Assembly (NCBI RefSeq): GCF_900291475.1 | Contig: NZ_OLMM01000005.1 | Coordinates: 822,400-886,399 of the forward strand | Length of the DNA stretch: 64,000 bases | Direction of reading: 5' to 3' | Source: Acidaminococcus hominis | GTDB lineage: Bacteria; Bacillota; Negativicutes; Acidaminococcales; Acidaminococcaceae | Shown here: positions 40,046 through 46,222 of the stretch, in pieces | How the letters are laid out: every line of letters starts with the position of its first letter | How positions within the stretch are numbered: position 1 is the stretch's first letter | Made by a program: the position numbers and the translations under genes | Notes under the pieces: generated by a model | Seen by the model: only the letters and a program-made list of their open reading frames with translations | What the model was told of the DNA's origin: nothing | Database searches by the model: none

Positions 40046-41593
40046 GGCTCTTCACGTTTTATTGTGGGATGGCAGATTTCTGCCATCCTTCTTTTATGTC
40101 TAGCAACATCCCACTGTCGCAATCTCTAGACAGTGCCGTTTCGTATAGATGGTAATGCTGAATATCGAATCAGAGTGAAAAAATATTCATCATTTTTGTA
40201 TCCATACCCTATTCGTTTTGCAACCTTAATCTTGTTATTGAAGCCTTCAAGCTTTCCTGTGGTAATCGGATGGGCTGAGTGAGCAATCAAACCCTCTTTG
40301 CGTTTTCGCTTTAAGCGGGCAAACTTTTGCAGCTGCGGTATGTTGCTCTCCTCGGCTCCTTTAAACCATTTTTCCCATTCTACGGCAGCTAAATCGGGGT
40401 TTCTAAGCTCGAATAGATCACTTAGTTCCTCTTTCATTGTATGGCAAACTGTCAAATTTTCATGTTTTTTAAGGATTTCCTTGAGATTTTCTGCCTTTTT
40501 ATCGCTTAGTGTTTCTTCCTTGCAAAGCAGCGTCCAGCGAGCTTGTTTTACTTCCTTGTAAAGCCGATTCTCCTCTTTAATTGAATCCTCTGCTTTTGTT
40601 GCCTGCTCTTCAGCAATATTCTCTGTAATCCCAAGCTTTAGGTTATCTTCTTACTGTTTGTGCTGTCTTTCTTCATACAGCCTTACGGCTACCAGCTCAT
40701 CTCGTCCATACTGGGCTTGCATATGGTAGCGGTCGTATACTATTGCCGCATGAGGCAGATACTTTTCTACCAGGGTGTTGAACGATGCGTTCATGTCCAT
40801 TGCGACAGCTTCTACTTCAGACAAATACTCCAGGTCTGTCTCTTCAAAAAACTTTGTAAAGGCAGCTATAGAGCGTCCCGCACCAACCCAGAGGATGTCT
40901 CCCATATCAAGGTCCATAACACAGGTTGCGTAAGTATGGCCTTTGTGCATTGCAAACTCATCAACGGCAAGATGCTTAGGACGGTAGCCACTTTTGCGAA
41001 GTTCCTCGCTTCGCGTTTTGAGAGCCTCGTCCATAATTTCCTTATGGATTTTAGAAACTGTTCCCCAATGGATACCGGTCAAATCGCTGACTGCTTTAAT
41101 CGTCATTTGATGCATAAGCAAAATCTTGATCCATAAAGCGGCACGAGAAGTGACTCTGGTTCCAGGATACTTAAAGGTTATGTTTTCATTGAAGGTATGC
41201 CCGCATTTTTGGCACCGGTAGCGGTGGAATCTCACACGAAGAATCCGTGGCTTTCCGGGTATCCAGGACATGTCTTTAAGTGTAGTTACAGGGTTGTCAT
41301 GGACATGGACCTTACCGCCGCAGCAAGGGCATACAACGTCGGCTGTAGGCCGGGTACTATTTACATCTATGATCTCTTCAAAAAGAGAAGCAATACTCGT
41401 AGGAATATTAAAATTGTCCTGTATGTTTTTGCATAAATTTGCTATACTTGAGGTTGAGAGCACGTGGATCATTCCTTTCGTAGTTTTGTCGCTATTACTT
41501 AGAATGGAGCATCCCGTGCTCTTTTTCAATACCTTTTTTCAGTTTTTAAATTCTGTCTTAGATTTCGTATCCCCCAATTTTCCGTGATGAGCC
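40046..41593 (-). mobile_element. ISL3-family insertion sequence, complete, 1548 bp
   Basis: The left end begins GGCTCTTCACG (40046) and the right end, read on the minus strand, begins GGCTCATCACG (41593). The 19-base terminal repeats agree at 14 positions. Both sides are flanked by the identical 8-base sequence ATAAAATT (40038-40045 and 41594-41601), the target duplication size known for ISL3 elements. It sits between aspS and the alpha-CTD/sigma4 gene, in non-coding DNA, so no gene is visibly interrupted. Confidence 0.93.
40126..41472 (-). pseudogene. ISL3-family transposase, split by one in-frame stop codon
   Basis: The frame is continuous over 449 codons except for one TAA at 40651-40653 (codon 274). 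The first part has the ISL3 zinc finger (CPCCGG..RCQKCGHTF), helix-turn-helix, and the first two catalytic aspartates in LAVDEFAMHKG and IVYDRYHMQ. The third catalytic residue, Glu in TTGKLEGFNNKIK, lies beyond the stop, so the truncated product should be inactive. There is no frameshift. Upstream codons to 41529 are open, but the real start is probably the ATG at 41472 or a GTG nine bases on, after AAAGGA. Confidence 0.88.
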
Positions 41594-41601: not shown

Positions 41602-41840
41602 TCTTTGGGAAAAGAATACTTTACGGAAATTTTACATACAGGAAAAACAAGTAGTACAAAATAAAGAAATTTTGCTATAATCCCGGCGAATATGGTACAC
41701 TATAGATTGAAAAAGTACAGGCAGAAGTACATAGGAATTCTTGTTCCGAGCACTTACCTGAAAACCTTTATAAGCAAGCTATAGCTTAGGGAGGGGAACC
41801 TTTCCCTTCCTAAAATCCTGGAAAAAAGCTGGTGAGACAG
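41602..41840 (+). promoter_or_regulatory. Gene-free leader upstream of the alpha-CTD/sigma4 fusion
   Basis: The stretch is AT-rich. A consensus TATAAT lies at 41676-41681 without a good -35. TTGCTA at 41673-41678 could itself be a -35 for TACACT about 18 bases downstream. A purine-rich GGGAGGGG followed by TTTCCCTTCC lies about 40 bases before the start. Nothing else is recognisable. Confidence 0.4.
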
Positions 41841-44525
41841 ATGGCAGACACTCCTCTTGCAGTATTGACATTTTCCGTCCGTGCCTCCCATGTGCTGAAA
41901 GGCATGGGGATTGGCACCGTGGAGCAATTATTGGCCACACCCTCTAAAAGGATTGCGGTTCAAAAGAATGCCGGCCGTAAAACCCTGGAAGAAATTGAAC
42001 GCATCCGGCAGGATATTCTGTCGGGTAAAATTGATTTGGCAGCCCTGGAACAAAAAGGCAGGGCTCCCGGGGCTGTTCCCAGGCAATTTTCCCAGGATCA
42101 GTTGTCCGAACTTTCCCGGCACTCCATTGGGGAGCTGGGGCTCTCGGCCCGGCCCTACCACGCCCTGATTCATCGGGAACTGGTGACCCTGGACCAGGTG
42201 GCGGTGCTGACTGTCGAAGAAATGGAAAAATGGACCGGCTTTGGTCATAAATCCCTGGTGGAGCTCCAGACCGTGCTGGGCCAGTGGCTTGCCAAGAACC
42301 TGGTACCCGCGGCTGCTGCCGAGGAGGAGCTGCCAGGGGAGGGGGAGATTTCTGAAGCCTGCCGGAGCTATTTTCAGAACCTGGCCCAGAACCTGAGACC
42401 CCTCCAGTGGGTGTCCTGGCACCAGTTAAAGGAGGCGGCGGACAAGGCCGGCCTAACCGAAGCTTTGGTGTATTATGGGGACCAGCTGCCCCGGCAGCTC
42501 CAAATGGATCTGCTGTCCATGCCCGTTTTGGCACCGGCGCTCAGAAAACTGTTTTTCCAGCTGGCACCGGAAGGGATTCTCAAAACGGAAGAACTGAAAA
42601 AAGAACTGGATCAGCTGGACCTGCCCATTGCCGGGGACGTGCTGTTTCAGGTATTTCTGCGCCGCCACGTGGGAGCCCTTTTGGGGAACGCCTGCTATTT
42701 TCCCCGGCCCAATCTCAGCCGGTACCTGCGGCGGCATGCCAAGGAGTGGGATGCCCGGGTGCTGTCCATGCTGCGGCTGCGGCTCCAGGGAGAAACCCTC
42801 CAGGCCATCGGCAACCGGTTTTCCGTAAGCCGGGAGCGGGTGCGGCAGATTACTTCCAAAATGGCTCGCAAATTCCCGCCCCTGTACGAAGACTACTATG
42901 AACGGCCCTTTACCTATTTCAAATTTACCAAGGAAGAATTCTGTCAGGCCTTTCCCCAGTGCGGCGGCCAGGGCTACGAGTTCCTGGCCCTTCGGTGGGA
43001 GCGGGGGACCCACAAGGTAAACCGGGAAAATATCGAGGCCTACCAGGATGTTTTCAGAGGCCAGCTGGTGCGCTGCCTGGTGGCCAAGGACAAGCAGAGC
43101 ATTACCCGGACGGCCCTGGCTTACCGGGTGCTGCTCAGCAACAGTGAAAATGCCCTGACCATGGAAGAACTGGCCCAGGCCTACAACCGGTACCTGAAGG
43201 ACAACGGCTACCCCAAGGAGCGGCTCCACCTGAACATCCATACCCTGACCAATACCCTGCGCAATTCTTCCCATGTGGTGTGGGACCAGAACAGCCGGGT
43301 GCGGTACTGCGAAGCGGACGGGGAGCGGCTGTGGGAGGAAATCGACTTCCAGCGGTACAAGGACAAGGTGATTTCCACAGAGCTCATCTACCGGGATTAT
43401 CCGGACCTGATGGAAGCCCTGGACCTGCGGGATGGCTACGAGCTGTTCTATGCCCTAAAGACGTCCCAGCCCCAAGCTGCCCCAGGCGGCCTTTCCGTGG
43501 TATTTCGCCGGGTGCCGGTGGTGGTCATTGGGGACGGCCGGGAGGACCAGCAGGCCCTGGACCTGCTAAAGGAACTTTCCCCGGTAAGCTACCACGACTT
43601 TTACCAGGCCTACGAGGAGCGCTATGGGGTCAAGAAGGAAACGGCCCAGGGGAACGGGGAACTGAACCGGCCTCTGCTGCCCTATTATGCCCACGGGGAA
43701 TATACCCTGGAAGTGCCCACCCTGGACCCCCGGGACCGGGAGCCCTTTCTCCATGCCCTGGGCCAGAAAAAGTTCTGGTTCTGGGATGATTTGAAGCGGG
43801 TGTTTGCCGCGGTCTGCATCCATTCGTCCCCGGATGCCTTAAACCGGGCAGCCTTTCAGCGGATTGGCTACGCTTTCCAGACCGGCTACGCCTACAAAAG
43901 CGAATACGGTACAGCCCTGCGGTTTTTCGACCAGGAAATCTTTAACGGCAAGGTGGTACAGCTCAGTCAGCTGGATCCCCGGCTTACTTCCCTGCCCACC
44001 TTCCAGTCCGCCCTGAACCATAAGCGGAACAAACTGGAATACATCGAAACCCGGCCCAAGGTCCTGGAACCGGCTGCCCAGGTGGAACGCAAGTACGGCA
44101 TTAGCCGCCAGGAAATCAAGGCCTTCCAGAAATGGGTAAACAGCCAGTGCCGGGAACCCTATTTCAATGGCTACAGCCTGTGGTCCCAAATCCGGGACTA
44201 CCCTTTGGTCCGGAAAATCCAGGGGAAAAAATGGCTGTACACGGCCCTGCTGCGGCAGCAGGCTGGGGTTTCCTCCCTGGTGGTTACCGGCGGCCTGGTG
44301 CTCAGCCGGGAAAACCAGACTCTCAATCTGAGAAAAATCTGCCTGTGGCTGGCGGACCGGTACGGCAAAAAGAGCCTGGAAGAAATGACCCGGTTGTTCA
44401 ACAAACAATTCGGCACCCAGGTGCCTTCATACAAACTGGCGGAAAAACTGCGGGGCAAAGGGGTCTGGGAACAGGTGATTACCGATTCCCTGGAATCCTA
44501 CCTGGATCAGCTGCTGCCGGAGTAA
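41841..44525 (+). CDS. Large protein with two RNA-polymerase alpha-CTD-like domains and a sigma-70 region-4-like HTH
   Basis: No function is known to me. Residues 5-60 match the alpha C-terminal domain (LTFSVRASHVLKGMGIGTVEQLL..NAGRKTLEEI), and residues 95-150 match it again (LGLSARPYHALI..GFGHKSLVEL). The DNA-contact residues equivalent to E. coli Arg265, Gly296 and Lys298 are kept in both copies (Arg14/Gly45/Lys47 and Arg104/Gly135/Lys137). Residues 305-345 match sigma region 4.2 (TLQAIGNRFSVSRERVRQI). About 550 further residues are unassigned; 430-490 look like a winged helix. A GTG nine bases upstream is an alternative start. The gene stands alone beside the insertion sequence. Cytoplasmic. 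Confidence 0.85.
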   Translation: MADTPLAVLTFSVRASHVLKGMGIGTVEQLLATPSKRIAVQKNAGRKTLEEIERIRQDILSGKIDLAALEQKGRAPGAVPRQFSQDQLSELSRHSIGELGLSARPYHALIHRELVTLDQVAVLTVEEMEKWTGFGHKSLVELQTVLGQWLAKNLVPAAAAEEELPGEGEISEACRSYFQNLAQNLRPLQWVSWHQLKEAADKAGLTEALVYYGDQLPRQLQMDLLSMPVLAPALRKLFFQLAPEGILKTEELKKELDQLDLPIAGDVLFQVFLRRHVGALLGNACYFPRPNLSRYLRRHAKEWDARVLSMLRLRLQGETLQAIGNRFSVSRERVRQITSKMARKFPPLYEDYYERPFTYFKFTKEEFCQAFPQCGGQGYEFLALRWERGTHKVNRENIEAYQDVFRGQLVRCLVAKDKQSITRTALAYRVLLSNSENALTMEELAQAYNRYLKDNGYPKERLHLNIHTLTNTLRNSSHVVWDQNSRVRYCEADGERLWEEIDFQRYKDKVISTELIYRDYPDLMEALDLRDGYELFYALKTSQPQAAPGGLSVVFRRVPVVVIGDGREDQQALDLLKELSPVSYHDFYQAYEERYGVKKETAQGNGELNRPLLPYYAHGEYTLEVPTLDPRDREPFLHALGQKKFWFWDDLKRVFAAVCIHSSPDALNRAAFQRIGYAFQTGYAYKSEYGTALRFFDQEIFNGKVVQLSQLDPRLTSLPTFQSALNHKRNKLEYIETRPKVLEPAAQVERKYGISRQEIKAFQKWVNSQCREPYFNGYSLWSQIRDYPLVRKIQGKKWLYTALLRQQAGVSSLVVTGGLVLSRENQTLNLRKICLWLADRYGKKSLEEMTRLFNKQFGTQVPSYKLAEKLRGKGVWEQVITDSLESYLDQLLPE

Positions 44526-44597: not shown

Positions 44598-44626
44598 GCG
44601 TGCATGCGCAGAAAGGTGGTTTTGTT

Positions 44627-46222
44627 GTGCATTGGAAGAAAATTCTCGGAATCTGTACGGCCGGCCTGCTGTCCCTGCCCGGGGCAGTGAGCGCTGGGGA
44701 AAAGCTGGTGTTTGTCCCCTTGGACAACCGGCCCGTTTCCCTGGCCTATACAGCGGACAGTTTCCGCAAAGCAGGGTATCAGGTGGTAACGCCTCCTGCA
44801 GAGCTTTTGGCCTCGGACCGGCAGCAGGGGAAACCGGAACAGCTGGAAAAATGGCTGGAGCAGGAAATTCCCGGGTCCATAGGGACCGTGGTTTCGGCAG
44901 ATACCCTGATTTATGGGGGCCTTACCGGGTCCAGGACCCATGAGCTGCCGGCGGGGGTTCTGGCCAAACGGACCCAAAGCCTTTTGAACCTGAAAAAGAA
45001 ATTTCCCTTGGTTCCGGTCTATGCTTTTGCAACCATTATGCGGTCTCCCCGCTACAGTGCAGCGCCGGCCGAACCGGCCTACTACGCCCAGTATGGGCCC
45101 CAGATTTTTCGCTGGGGGGAACTCCGGGACCGGCAGGAATTGCAGCTGCTGAACAAAAAGGAAACCCAGGAGCTGGAACAGTTGGAAAAGAGCCTGCCCC
45201 AGGAGGTTCAGACGGACGTTCTTTCCCGCAGAAGCAAGAACCTGCGGGTGCTGGAGCAGCTGGCCCAGGGGATTCCGGAAGGCCGGCTGGATTACCTGGT
45301 CATTGGCCGGGACGATTCGGCGCCTTTTTCGGAAGCCCACCGGGACGCCAGGGCCTTTTTCCTGACCACGGGAGATGTACCTTCCTATAAGCTGCGCTCC
45401 TTCTCCGGAACCGATGAACTTGGGATGCTGATGCTGAACCGGGCAGTGAACCGGAGCAAGGGGGTTACCCCCCTGGTGTACGCCTACTATACCGGCGGCA
45501 CCGGCGGCAGGACCGTGCCCAGCTACGAGGACGGCACCATCCGCCAGAGCTATCGCCAGCACGTGCTGGCTGCCGGCGGGTACCCGGCCCTGCTGGATAA
45601 GAATGCGGACCTGGTGCTGGGGATTTACACCCCGGTCAACGGCATTACCGCCGGGGCCGATACGGACGCCAACACCAGTCGTTTGGATGACCGGCAGGAA
45701 AGTTTTTTGGCGAAAACCAGACGGTACGTGGACGCAGGCCGGAACGTGGGCCTGGCGGACATTAACGTCAGCAACGGGGGCAGCAATGGCCTGGTAAAGC
45801 ATCTGCTTACCGCCCGCCAGGGCAAAACACCCCTGGGCTGGGAGCTGGGCTCCTACGCCGGCTGGAATACGGCCGGCAACTCCCTGGGCTATGCCCTGGG
45901 GCAGGGGCTGCTCCGCAAGCGCCTGTCCGACCAGAACCGGAAGGACCTGCTCACGGTCCGCTACCTGGACGACTGGCTGTACCAAAGCAAGGTGCGCCAG
46001 GAAGTGCGCCAGCAGCTGATCTACCCCAAAGGGTACCCGGATGGGGCCCTGACGGACCAGGAAACCCTGGAAGCACAGCAGTTTATTGCCAAAGCCATGC
46101 CAGAAGCTGGGAAAAAGTACTTTGTGCCCCAGGTCTGGCAGGCATATACCTTTACTTTGCCCTGGCACAGGACCTTTGAAGTCTATGTCAAGCCAGCGAC
46201 AAAACCGGAAGCACGTAAGTAA
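44627..46222 (+). CDS. DUF4127 family exported protein
   Basis: The product of 531 residues has a signal peptide (HWKKILGICTAGLLSLPGAVSAG) and then the DUF4127 hallmark KLVFVPLDNRPVSLAYTADSFRKAG. Other conserved stretches are SADTLIYGGLTGSR, YLVIGRDDSAPFS, DELGMLMLNRAVNR and GWNTAGNSLGYALGQG. The family is uncharacterised; the fold may be enzyme-like, given the many conserved Asp, Arg and Gly residues. The GTG at 44627 is chosen, with AAAGGTGG seven bases upstream. It is 14 bases from the AbgA-like gene, so both probably form one operon. Confidence 0.85.
   Translation: MHWKKILGICTAGLLSLPGAVSAGEKLVFVPLDNRPVSLAYTADSFRKAGYQVVTPPAELLASDRQQGKPEQLEKWLEQEIPGSIGTVVSADTLIYGGLTGSRTHELPAGVLAKRTQSLLNLKKKFPLVPVYAFATIMRSPRYSAAPAEPAYYAQYGPQIFRWGELRDRQELQLLNKKETQELEQLEKSLPQEVQTDVLSRRSKNLRVLEQLAQGIPEGRLDYLVIGRDDSAPFSEAHRDARAFFLTTGDVPSYKLRSFSGTDELGMLMLNRAVNRSKGVTPLVYAYYTGGTGGRTVPSYEDGTIRQSYRQHVLAAGGYPALLDKNADLVLGIYTPVNGITAGADTDANTSRLDDRQESFLAKTRRYVDAGRNVGLADINVSNGGSNGLVKHLLTARQGKTPLGWELGSYAGWNTAGNSLGYALGQGLLRKRLSDQNRKDLLTVRYLDDWLYQSKVRQEVRQQLIYPKGYPDGALTDQETLEAQQFIAKAMPEAGKKYFVPQVWQAYTFTLPWHRTFEVYVKPATKPEARK

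Follow-up and report, generated by a model that had tools for sequence, protein, structure and literature searches.

The window analysed here is a stretch of 64,000 nucleotides of the Acidaminococcus hominis contig NZ_OLMM01000005.1, and the gene under study occupies 41832..44525 on its forward strand. Based on its open reading frame, Pfam matches and an AF2 model, this sigma-like gene encodes, in order, two RNA polymerase alpha C-terminal domains (alpha-CTDs), one sigma-70 region 4 and an array of winged helices. Translation may start at GTG 41832 (897 aa) or at ATG 41841 (894 aa); the stop codon ends at 44525 and all 897 codons are intact. The gene is flanked on one side by aspS (assigned by eye) and an ISL3-type transposase gene on the reverse strand (40126..41529), which is broken over two reading frames and shows a Pfam DDE_Tnp_ISL3 match on both halves. 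On the other side lie a DUF4127 gene (44600..46222, forward strand; Pfam PF13552) and then an M20 peptidase gene. We consider the transposase, DUF4127 and M20 peptidase genes to be neighbours outside the system, and the locus lacks the appearance of a defence island. A scan for sigma-70-type promoters revealed no site just upstream of the sigma-like gene and no excess over shuffled sequences.

The DUF4127 and M20 peptidase genes are adjacent in the stretches from 8/8 other genomes of the same genus, and the sigma-like gene, aspS and the ISL3 element are absent from all eight (one of them with only ~0.4 kb upstream). The genes upstream of DUF4127, listed for six of these stretches, are common to two (L090 and L091) and different in the other four. 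Because of this variation no clean empty site was readable, and the search for an insertion scar at the window locus was abandoned. The sigma-like gene has a GC3 of 0.73, among the highest values for the long ORFs of the window and the same as that of the adjoining DUF4127 gene, against 0.40 and 0.46 for the two ISL3 halves, suggesting that the gene is probably a long-standing resident.

The two alpha-CTDs are found at residues 4-64 (41841..42023, forward strand) and 87-155 (42090..42296, forward strand). Two stretches of the protein match Pfam RNA_pol_A_CTD (PF03118), with 75.3 bits for the whole protein (E 3.2e-21; cut-off 23.8 bits). In the VIA structure comparison the first copy superposes on 1z3e_B (Z 9.6, rmsd 1.6, 64 residues) and the second on 8y5l_A2 (Z 10.5, rmsd 1.5, 63 residues). 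A search of the whole genome with the alpha-CTD family matched three places, namely rpoA (by eye, E 7.8e-24) and the two copies in the sigma-like gene (E 2.0e-10 and 5.6e-10), which excludes a chance match. The sigma-70 region-4-like domain lies at residues 295-350 (42714..42881, forward strand) and contains the helix SRERVRQI. Sigma70_r4 (PF04545) matched residues 309-343 with 29.1 bits (cut-off 24.1 bits; E 7.2e-7), and the corresponding unit of the model, with all four helices present, superposes in VIA on domain 4 of S. aureus sigmaA (4g6d_A; Z 8.2, rmsd 2.1, 57 residues, 35% identity). An earlier sequence-only reading of this DNA had proposed two alpha-CTDs and one sigma region 4 fused in a stand-alone protein, and the Pfam matches over cut-off, together with the superposition of all three units on solved domains, bear this out. 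It had also seen no polymerase assembly domain, in agreement with the lack of any Pfam match to the alpha N-terminal domain up to E 10; the NCBIfam rpoA models match the protein only via their C-terminal part, far below cut-off. Likewise, sigma-70 region 2, the part for core and -10 binding, gave no Pfam match up to E 10, region 4 alone being matched.

Both alpha-CTD copies retain R17/G48/K50/E54 and R107/G138/K140/E144, respectively, which we take to be the equivalents of E. coli alpha R265/G296/K298/E302; the first three of these had been reported as kept in both copies, and they are. At the position of alpha N268 both copies have H. Among the 33 aligned rows, window included, the Arg265 equivalent is R in 31 rows for copy 1 and 28 for copy 2, the Gly296 equivalent is G in 32 and 25, and the Lys298 equivalent is K in 21 for either copy. 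In the sigma-4 unit the helix RERVRQI, which carries the RxRxRQ pattern of the family, spans residues 334-340, and its R334/E335/R336/R338/Q339 are presumably the counterpart of the sigma-70 region 4.2 helix; R336 and Q339 are identical in 33/33 rows. Given these retained residues, whose positions contact DNA in RNA polymerase, binding of the window protein to promoter-like (UP/-35) DNA is plausible.

The AF2 model of the window protein (mean pLDDT 82.5) shows one winged-helix-like unit ahead of sigma-4 and a run of further units after it, up to the C-terminus, and at a pTM of 0.40 the arrangement of the domains is not readable from it. The unit preceding sigma-4 (residues 231-291; 42522..42704, forward strand) was delimited by eye from its helix and strand pattern and had no specific structural match. 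A unit at residues 424-494 (43101..43313, forward strand) is supported by VIA matches to Zur (3mwm_A on residues 422-533; Z 8.7, rmsd 2.5, 63 aligned) and Fur (9ire_B on residues 424-495; Z 8.4, rmsd 1.9, 63 aligned). It is followed by a unit at residues 496-567 (43317..43532, forward strand) with the motif D-x-Y-E-L, whose D534, Y536, E537 and L538 are identical in 33/33 rows. Conservation in the family peaks in this winged helix, where 16 columns of the 33-row alignment A3 reach at least 90%, and not in the promoter-reading part. Residues 570-895 (43539..44516, forward strand) appear to hold further winged-helix-like repeats, with boundaries set by eye on the AF2 secondary structure. Tandem winged-helix proteins (UFL1/DDRGK1, SelB, STK19) were among the Foldseek matches of the whole model, only UFL1/DDRGK1 at E <0.001, and the HARE-HTH domain gave no Pfam match up to E 10, though the model shows winged-helix-like units. 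The suggestion that residues 350-894 might harbour an effector was not upheld: no enzyme domain was matched by Pfam or recognised in the AF2 model or structure comparisons, and the model shows winged-helix-like repeats there, in a part barely probed by VIA, whose listing was dominated by alpha-CTDs, so that a cryptic fold there is possible.

Judged from its sequence, the window gene belongs to a sparse family with the (alpha-CTD)2 - sigma-4 - winged-helix architecture. Searched with as a single sequence, the window protein matches a protein of Desulfosporosinus acididurans nearly end to end (L028; window residues 8-888, E 3.6e-59). Counting the window genome itself, full-length relatives occur in 1 of the 59 genomes of the taxonomic family (13 more match short stretches only), in 1 of the 63 genomes of the order, which contain those 59, and in 4 of 398 genomes drawn from the phylum. 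The profile of alignment A3 matched 236 of these 398, only four of them at full length, and the next best match (E 2.4e-23) covers positions 9-155 only. A scan of a contig collection gave 54 pattern matches, 48 of which were relatives; it used one peptide pattern around D-x-Y-E-L, so that members without the motif were missed and the neighbourhood fractions given below are valid for this sample. According to the titles of their records, the relatives are mainly from Bacillota, with others from Treponema, Spirochaetia, Verrucomicrobia and Melainabacteria MAGs, and the MAG contigs may be misbinned.

The fusion is not the singular case that had been supposed, with relatives at 52 loci. Among 42 relative ORFs of at least 800 aa, 32 have at least two alpha-CTDs when matches as weak as E 1 are counted (25 when the limit is E 0.01), two have one and eight have none detectable, as counted with an HMM built from five rpoA sequences, which scores the window's own second copy at only E 0.015. 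Three alpha-CTDs at E up to 0.01 were found in L059 and L060. Six of the eight ORFs with none (L019, L021, L065, L069, L070 and L074) lie in defence-type loci with ParB-like or Ssp genes, showing that alpha-CTDs are dispensable in such loci.

The 52 loci, window excluded, come from 3 plasmids, 48 genome contigs and 1 viral contig. In 29 of them a ParB-like gene lies 0-55 bp from the sigma-like gene (28 by the first tagging; tblastn added L036, where an antisense ORF hid the frame), and in 25 of the 29 a SNF2 helicase gene adjoins the ParB-like gene. Of the other four, L038 and L040 stop at the contig edge, L045 has no SNF2 gene in its remaining 2.2 kb, and L060 shows none. The sigma-like gene precedes the ParB-like gene in 28 of these 29 loci, L060 having the reverse order. 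With the genes of one such locus as queries, tblastn detected a C5 methyltransferase and a MutH-type nuclease in five of the 52 loci (L046, L056, L062, L065 and L074), all five among those with a ParB-like gene; Pfam supports both in L027, which is the same locus as L065, and in L074 finds a MutH domain on one polypeptide with sigma-4. Genes of phosphorothioation (Ssp), BREX type 4 or PbeA-like kind are nearby in four of the 52 (L064, L069, L071 and L076), those of Ssp or BREX type 4 type being near L069, L071 and L076; PADLOC identified BrxP, SspB, SspC and PbeA in L069, BrxP and BrxC in L076, and PbeA in L064. Tabulated in this way, the neighbours place many relatives beside restriction-type defence genes. 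The idea of a defence protein, put forward from sequence, fits many relatives, through the ParB-like and the phosphorothioation, BREX4 or PbeA-like neighbours.

Defence is not the whole story, since 15 of the 52 loci show none of the sought partners despite at least 4 kb downstream, some of them with little upstream sequence. Among these 15, the gene of L057 is split over two frames, L050 is near a type I modification-type gene, and L049 and L067 have the same neighbours in differently named genera, which looks like the setting of a resident regulator. Four loci (L028, L048, L053 and L058) were left unclassified for partners; in L028 a transposase-like frame follows the sigma-like gene, and ParB-like and helicase genes open another contig. 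Solo and triad members do not form two clades. Mapped on a quick tree of 53 rows, 'solo' has to change 11 times, and supported branches force at least 9 of these changes; the labels predate the final locus classes (L048, L058 and L063 as solo; L060, without helicase, as triad) and leave out L057, L071 and ORFs under 540 aa. Shuffled labels needed 14.5 changes on average and as few as 11 in 12 of 500 cases, indicating some clustering. Six pairs without a seen partner, the window copy being outside this comparison, all have dN < dS, with dS usable in one pair (0.43, dN 0.19) and saturated in five; three of the six pairs include L048 or L058, for which there is little sequence downstream.

The ParB-like partner had no Pfam match (P0003 at E 0.1, P0010 at E 0.01), and P0003 matched no PADLOC model up to E 0.1. 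Seven of 20 members touched ddrB-ParB (best E 0.0013), and a profile search of solved structures with this partner gave no ParB. A model of the partner from L065 (pLDDT 85.9, pTM 0.74) had ParB or Noc as its ten best Foldseek matches (probability 1.00, best E 9.2e-4, TM-scores to targets 0.36-0.58). The helicase partner is of SNF2 type, its long form having a PLD-like part below the Pfam cut-off, and P0004 matches the PADLOC models DpdE, ZorD, DrmD and BrxH. In the 398 phylum genomes the ParB-like protein occurs five times, twice with the sigma-like protein (G401 and G065) and three times without a full-length one (G204, G251 and G297). In G251 and G297 it stands together with C5 methyltransferase and SNF2 genes, suggesting that the pair belongs to methylation-linked loci, and L130 and L131 show the pair beside C5 methyltransferases, with no sigma-like gene in the stretches covered. 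The sigma-like protein looks like one way of completing the ParB-like/SNF2 pair.

Several known systems resemble parts of this one. PglW of BREX type 2 is a defence protein in which an alpha-CTD-like unit precedes several winged helices, and has 1400-1600 aa, NERD nuclease and kinase domains and an inactive C-terminal STAND (PMC12839542). The NCBIfam and PADLOC models of PglW match the window protein best at alpha-CTD 1, but with 32.6 bits against a cut-off of 990 and no Pfam match to kinase, NERD or STAND. MzaA of the MZA system similarly has a sigma-4-like helix inside a large defence protein, but the match in the window protein is limited to ~30 residues and scores 19.7 bits, where the cut-off is 800. 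A search for MzaA proteins to compare yielded none: the MzaA model matched 395 of 398 genomes, none over cut-off, and the rows listed fell mostly at positions 474-716 and were taken as ordinary sigma factors. PDB 3n97, in which an alpha-CTD and sigma region 4 sit on UP/-35 DNA, has the same two reading heads, on separate RNA polymerase subunits and not on one chain as in the window protein; alpha-CTD 1 superposes on 3n97_C in VIA (Z 8.9, rmsd 1.4, 63 residues). The multi-winged-helix BrxA/DUF4007 and the sigma-HTH units of BrxL and some DndH are DNA readers in BREX and Dnd proteins, none described with tandem alpha-CTDs and sigma-4 in the available parts of these sources (PMC12839542, PMC10853773). 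The ParB-like partner shares ParB-fold superfamily likeness with DndB and other ParB/Srx proteins, and the triad helicase likeness at the same level with the SNF2 helicases of Dpd, Zorya, DISARM and BREX. In the literature covered, with bioRxiv and most subscription papers outside its scope, we found no description of this architecture or triad.

The window copy is not part of a triad, its partners being neither adjoining nor found in the genome. The search covered the ParB-like protein, the SNF2 helicase and the C5 methyltransferase. No ParB-like protein was found by single sequence or by profile at E 1e-20 (the profile matched 5/398 genomes), the helicase matches for SNF2 were all weak (E 3.0e-5 and 5.2e-5), and no C5 methyltransferase was detected by a search that was positive in 10 of 14 control genomes. 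In the 53-row quick tree the window copy has a long branch (2.21) and its placement is unsure.

We propose that the window protein comes from a lineage of proteins that recognise DNA for restriction-like defence, and that this genome has retained it as a DNA-binding protein on its own, probably acting at promoters; we give this reading a probability of about one half. The observations behind it are the domains, the conserved contact residues, the gene neighbourhoods and the absence of the sought partners from the genome, and from these we infer DNA binding, its sequence preference, the defence role and the function of the orphan. The protein would be a DNA-recognition scaffold and not an enzyme: its two alpha-CTDs would grip the minor groove of AT-rich DNA, sigma-4 would occupy the major groove at a -35-like site, and the winged-helix chain would contact further DNA or partner proteins. 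Reading heads of this promoter type point to UP/-35 DNA as a likely target, but the members of defence-type loci that have no detectable alpha-CTD show that this part is dispensable there. In many relatives the same scaffold would read DNA for a restriction-like defence module whose other members are a ParB-like protein and an SNF2 motor, joined in some loci by a MutH-type nuclease and a C5 methyltransferase. Such partners may once have accompanied the window copy or may never have done so. In our view the family consists of scaffolds for DNA recognition in restriction-like defence loci, and its members have more than once become, or remained, solitary. If so, an alpha-CTD and a sigma region 4 have been lifted from RNA polymerase onto one chain for defence or regulatory DNA reading, and a family whose members are currently annotated as 'hypothetical' or 'sigma factor-like helix-turn-helix' proteins would gain a name, and whether defence can be directed at promoters would become a testable question. 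The window orphan would offer a natural case of what such a DNA reader does without its partners.

The main rival is that the protein is a transcription regulator throughout, binding promoters and merely controlling the expression of ParB-like, SNF2 and restriction-modification genes in defence loci, while solo copies regulate host genes. The promoter-reading domains, the upstream position of the sigma-like gene in nearly all ParB-like loci, the common neighbours of L049 and L067 and the excess of dS over dN in the compared pairs are all consistent with this role. However, the MutH-type nuclease fusion in L074 and the tight coupling of the genes suggest a structural part, and ~900 aa is large for a regulator; we regard a purely regulatory role as possible and the less probable of the two. 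A bolder form of the defence-scaffold reading is a restriction-type defence aimed at promoters, in which the sigma-like reader of UP-element and -35 would mark transcription-ready incoming genes, a ParB-fold clamp and an SNF2 motor would act on them, methylation would provide the self/non-self check, and the window protein would then be a captured reader that stands on its own. We consider this rather unlikely.

The protein might instead bind RNA polymerase and not DNA, with sigma-4 docking on the beta flap and the alpha-CTDs mimicking activator contacts, so as to modulate or block transcription. The complete four-helix sigma-4 unit of the model would suit such docking, but conservation is among the highest at the residues for DNA contact (R336 and Q339 above all) and no other polymerase-binding domain was matched in Pfam, which makes this improbable. 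We give equally little credence to the window copy being a functionless remnant, in decay since the loss of the defence operon it belonged to, as the missing partners, the adjoining broken ISL3 element, the long branch and the single full-length copy among the 59 genomes of its family might suggest, in view of its intact reading frame, the contact residues kept in both alpha-CTDs and a GC3 that speaks for long residence.

A phage origin of the family was also considered and set aside. The 50,697 phage records gave no match at E 1e-5, a viral structure search with the model returned nothing at E 0.001 or better, and an IMG/VR scan with the single protein confirmed 0 of 7 pattern matches; the one IMG/VR relative, found by an alignment-based scan, sits with BREX type 4 genes. 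A weak match to phrog_351, a phage 'RNA polymerase sigma factor', covers residues 304-474 (E 2.3e-4). On plasmids, 48 Enterococcus records gave partial matches covering roughly half the query, with 30 of the 48 among the matches listed, and 45 of the 48 are typed as mobilizable or conjugative. The complete sigma-like/ParB-like/SNF2 triad is present in 3/3 Enterococcus plasmids examined, which, if our reading is correct, points to a new operon carried on these plasmids and in other Bacillota.

A shorter combination of alpha-CTD and sigma-4 domains was found in proteins of 571-592 amino acids encoded by three loci from other genomes (L102:1021-2799, L103:652-2394 and L104:658-2373). In the L102 protein, Pfam matches the alpha-CTD over four stretches (E 4.1e-52); a sigma-4 unit is also present, followed by a segment that, by eye, resembles a HARE-type winged helix. 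The L103 and L104 proteins, also compared by eye, resemble the L102 protein. On such inspection, the three look like a second, shorter architecture built with the same domain grammar as the family of the window protein.

In two relatives, the operon carries, 3' of the first sigma-like gene, a second and shorter paralogue (L032:12742-14724 and L033:12694-14685), in neither of which alpha-CTDs were detectable. Another sigma-like protein, with 1449 amino acids (L076:9989-14338), adjoins the BREX type 4-type genes BrxP and BrxC and bears a long C-terminal extension without Pfam match at E 0.001. At L071:312-6727 the sigma-like gene is split into several reading frames, next to PAPS-reductase, DUF4007 and SspC-like genes.

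Two ParB-like proteins have an N-terminal Swt1-like HEPN domain (L060:8245-9993, Pfam E 1.4e-26; L129:7345-9462, Pfam E 7.4e-23), which is possibly an RNase effector. A Z1 gene also lies near the L129 gene. C5 methyltransferase, ParB-like and SNF2 genes are clustered at L130:6196-11761 and L131:5054-11315, the latter additionally with a Vsr nuclease gene, and no sigma-like gene was found within the stretches read of these two loci.

Small genes immediately 3' of the sigma-like gene in two relatives (L053:2629-3117 and L060:12901-13383) resemble each other by eye. In the window, an ISL3 transposase gene is divided between two reading frames (40126-41529) and has a low GC3 compared with its neighbours.
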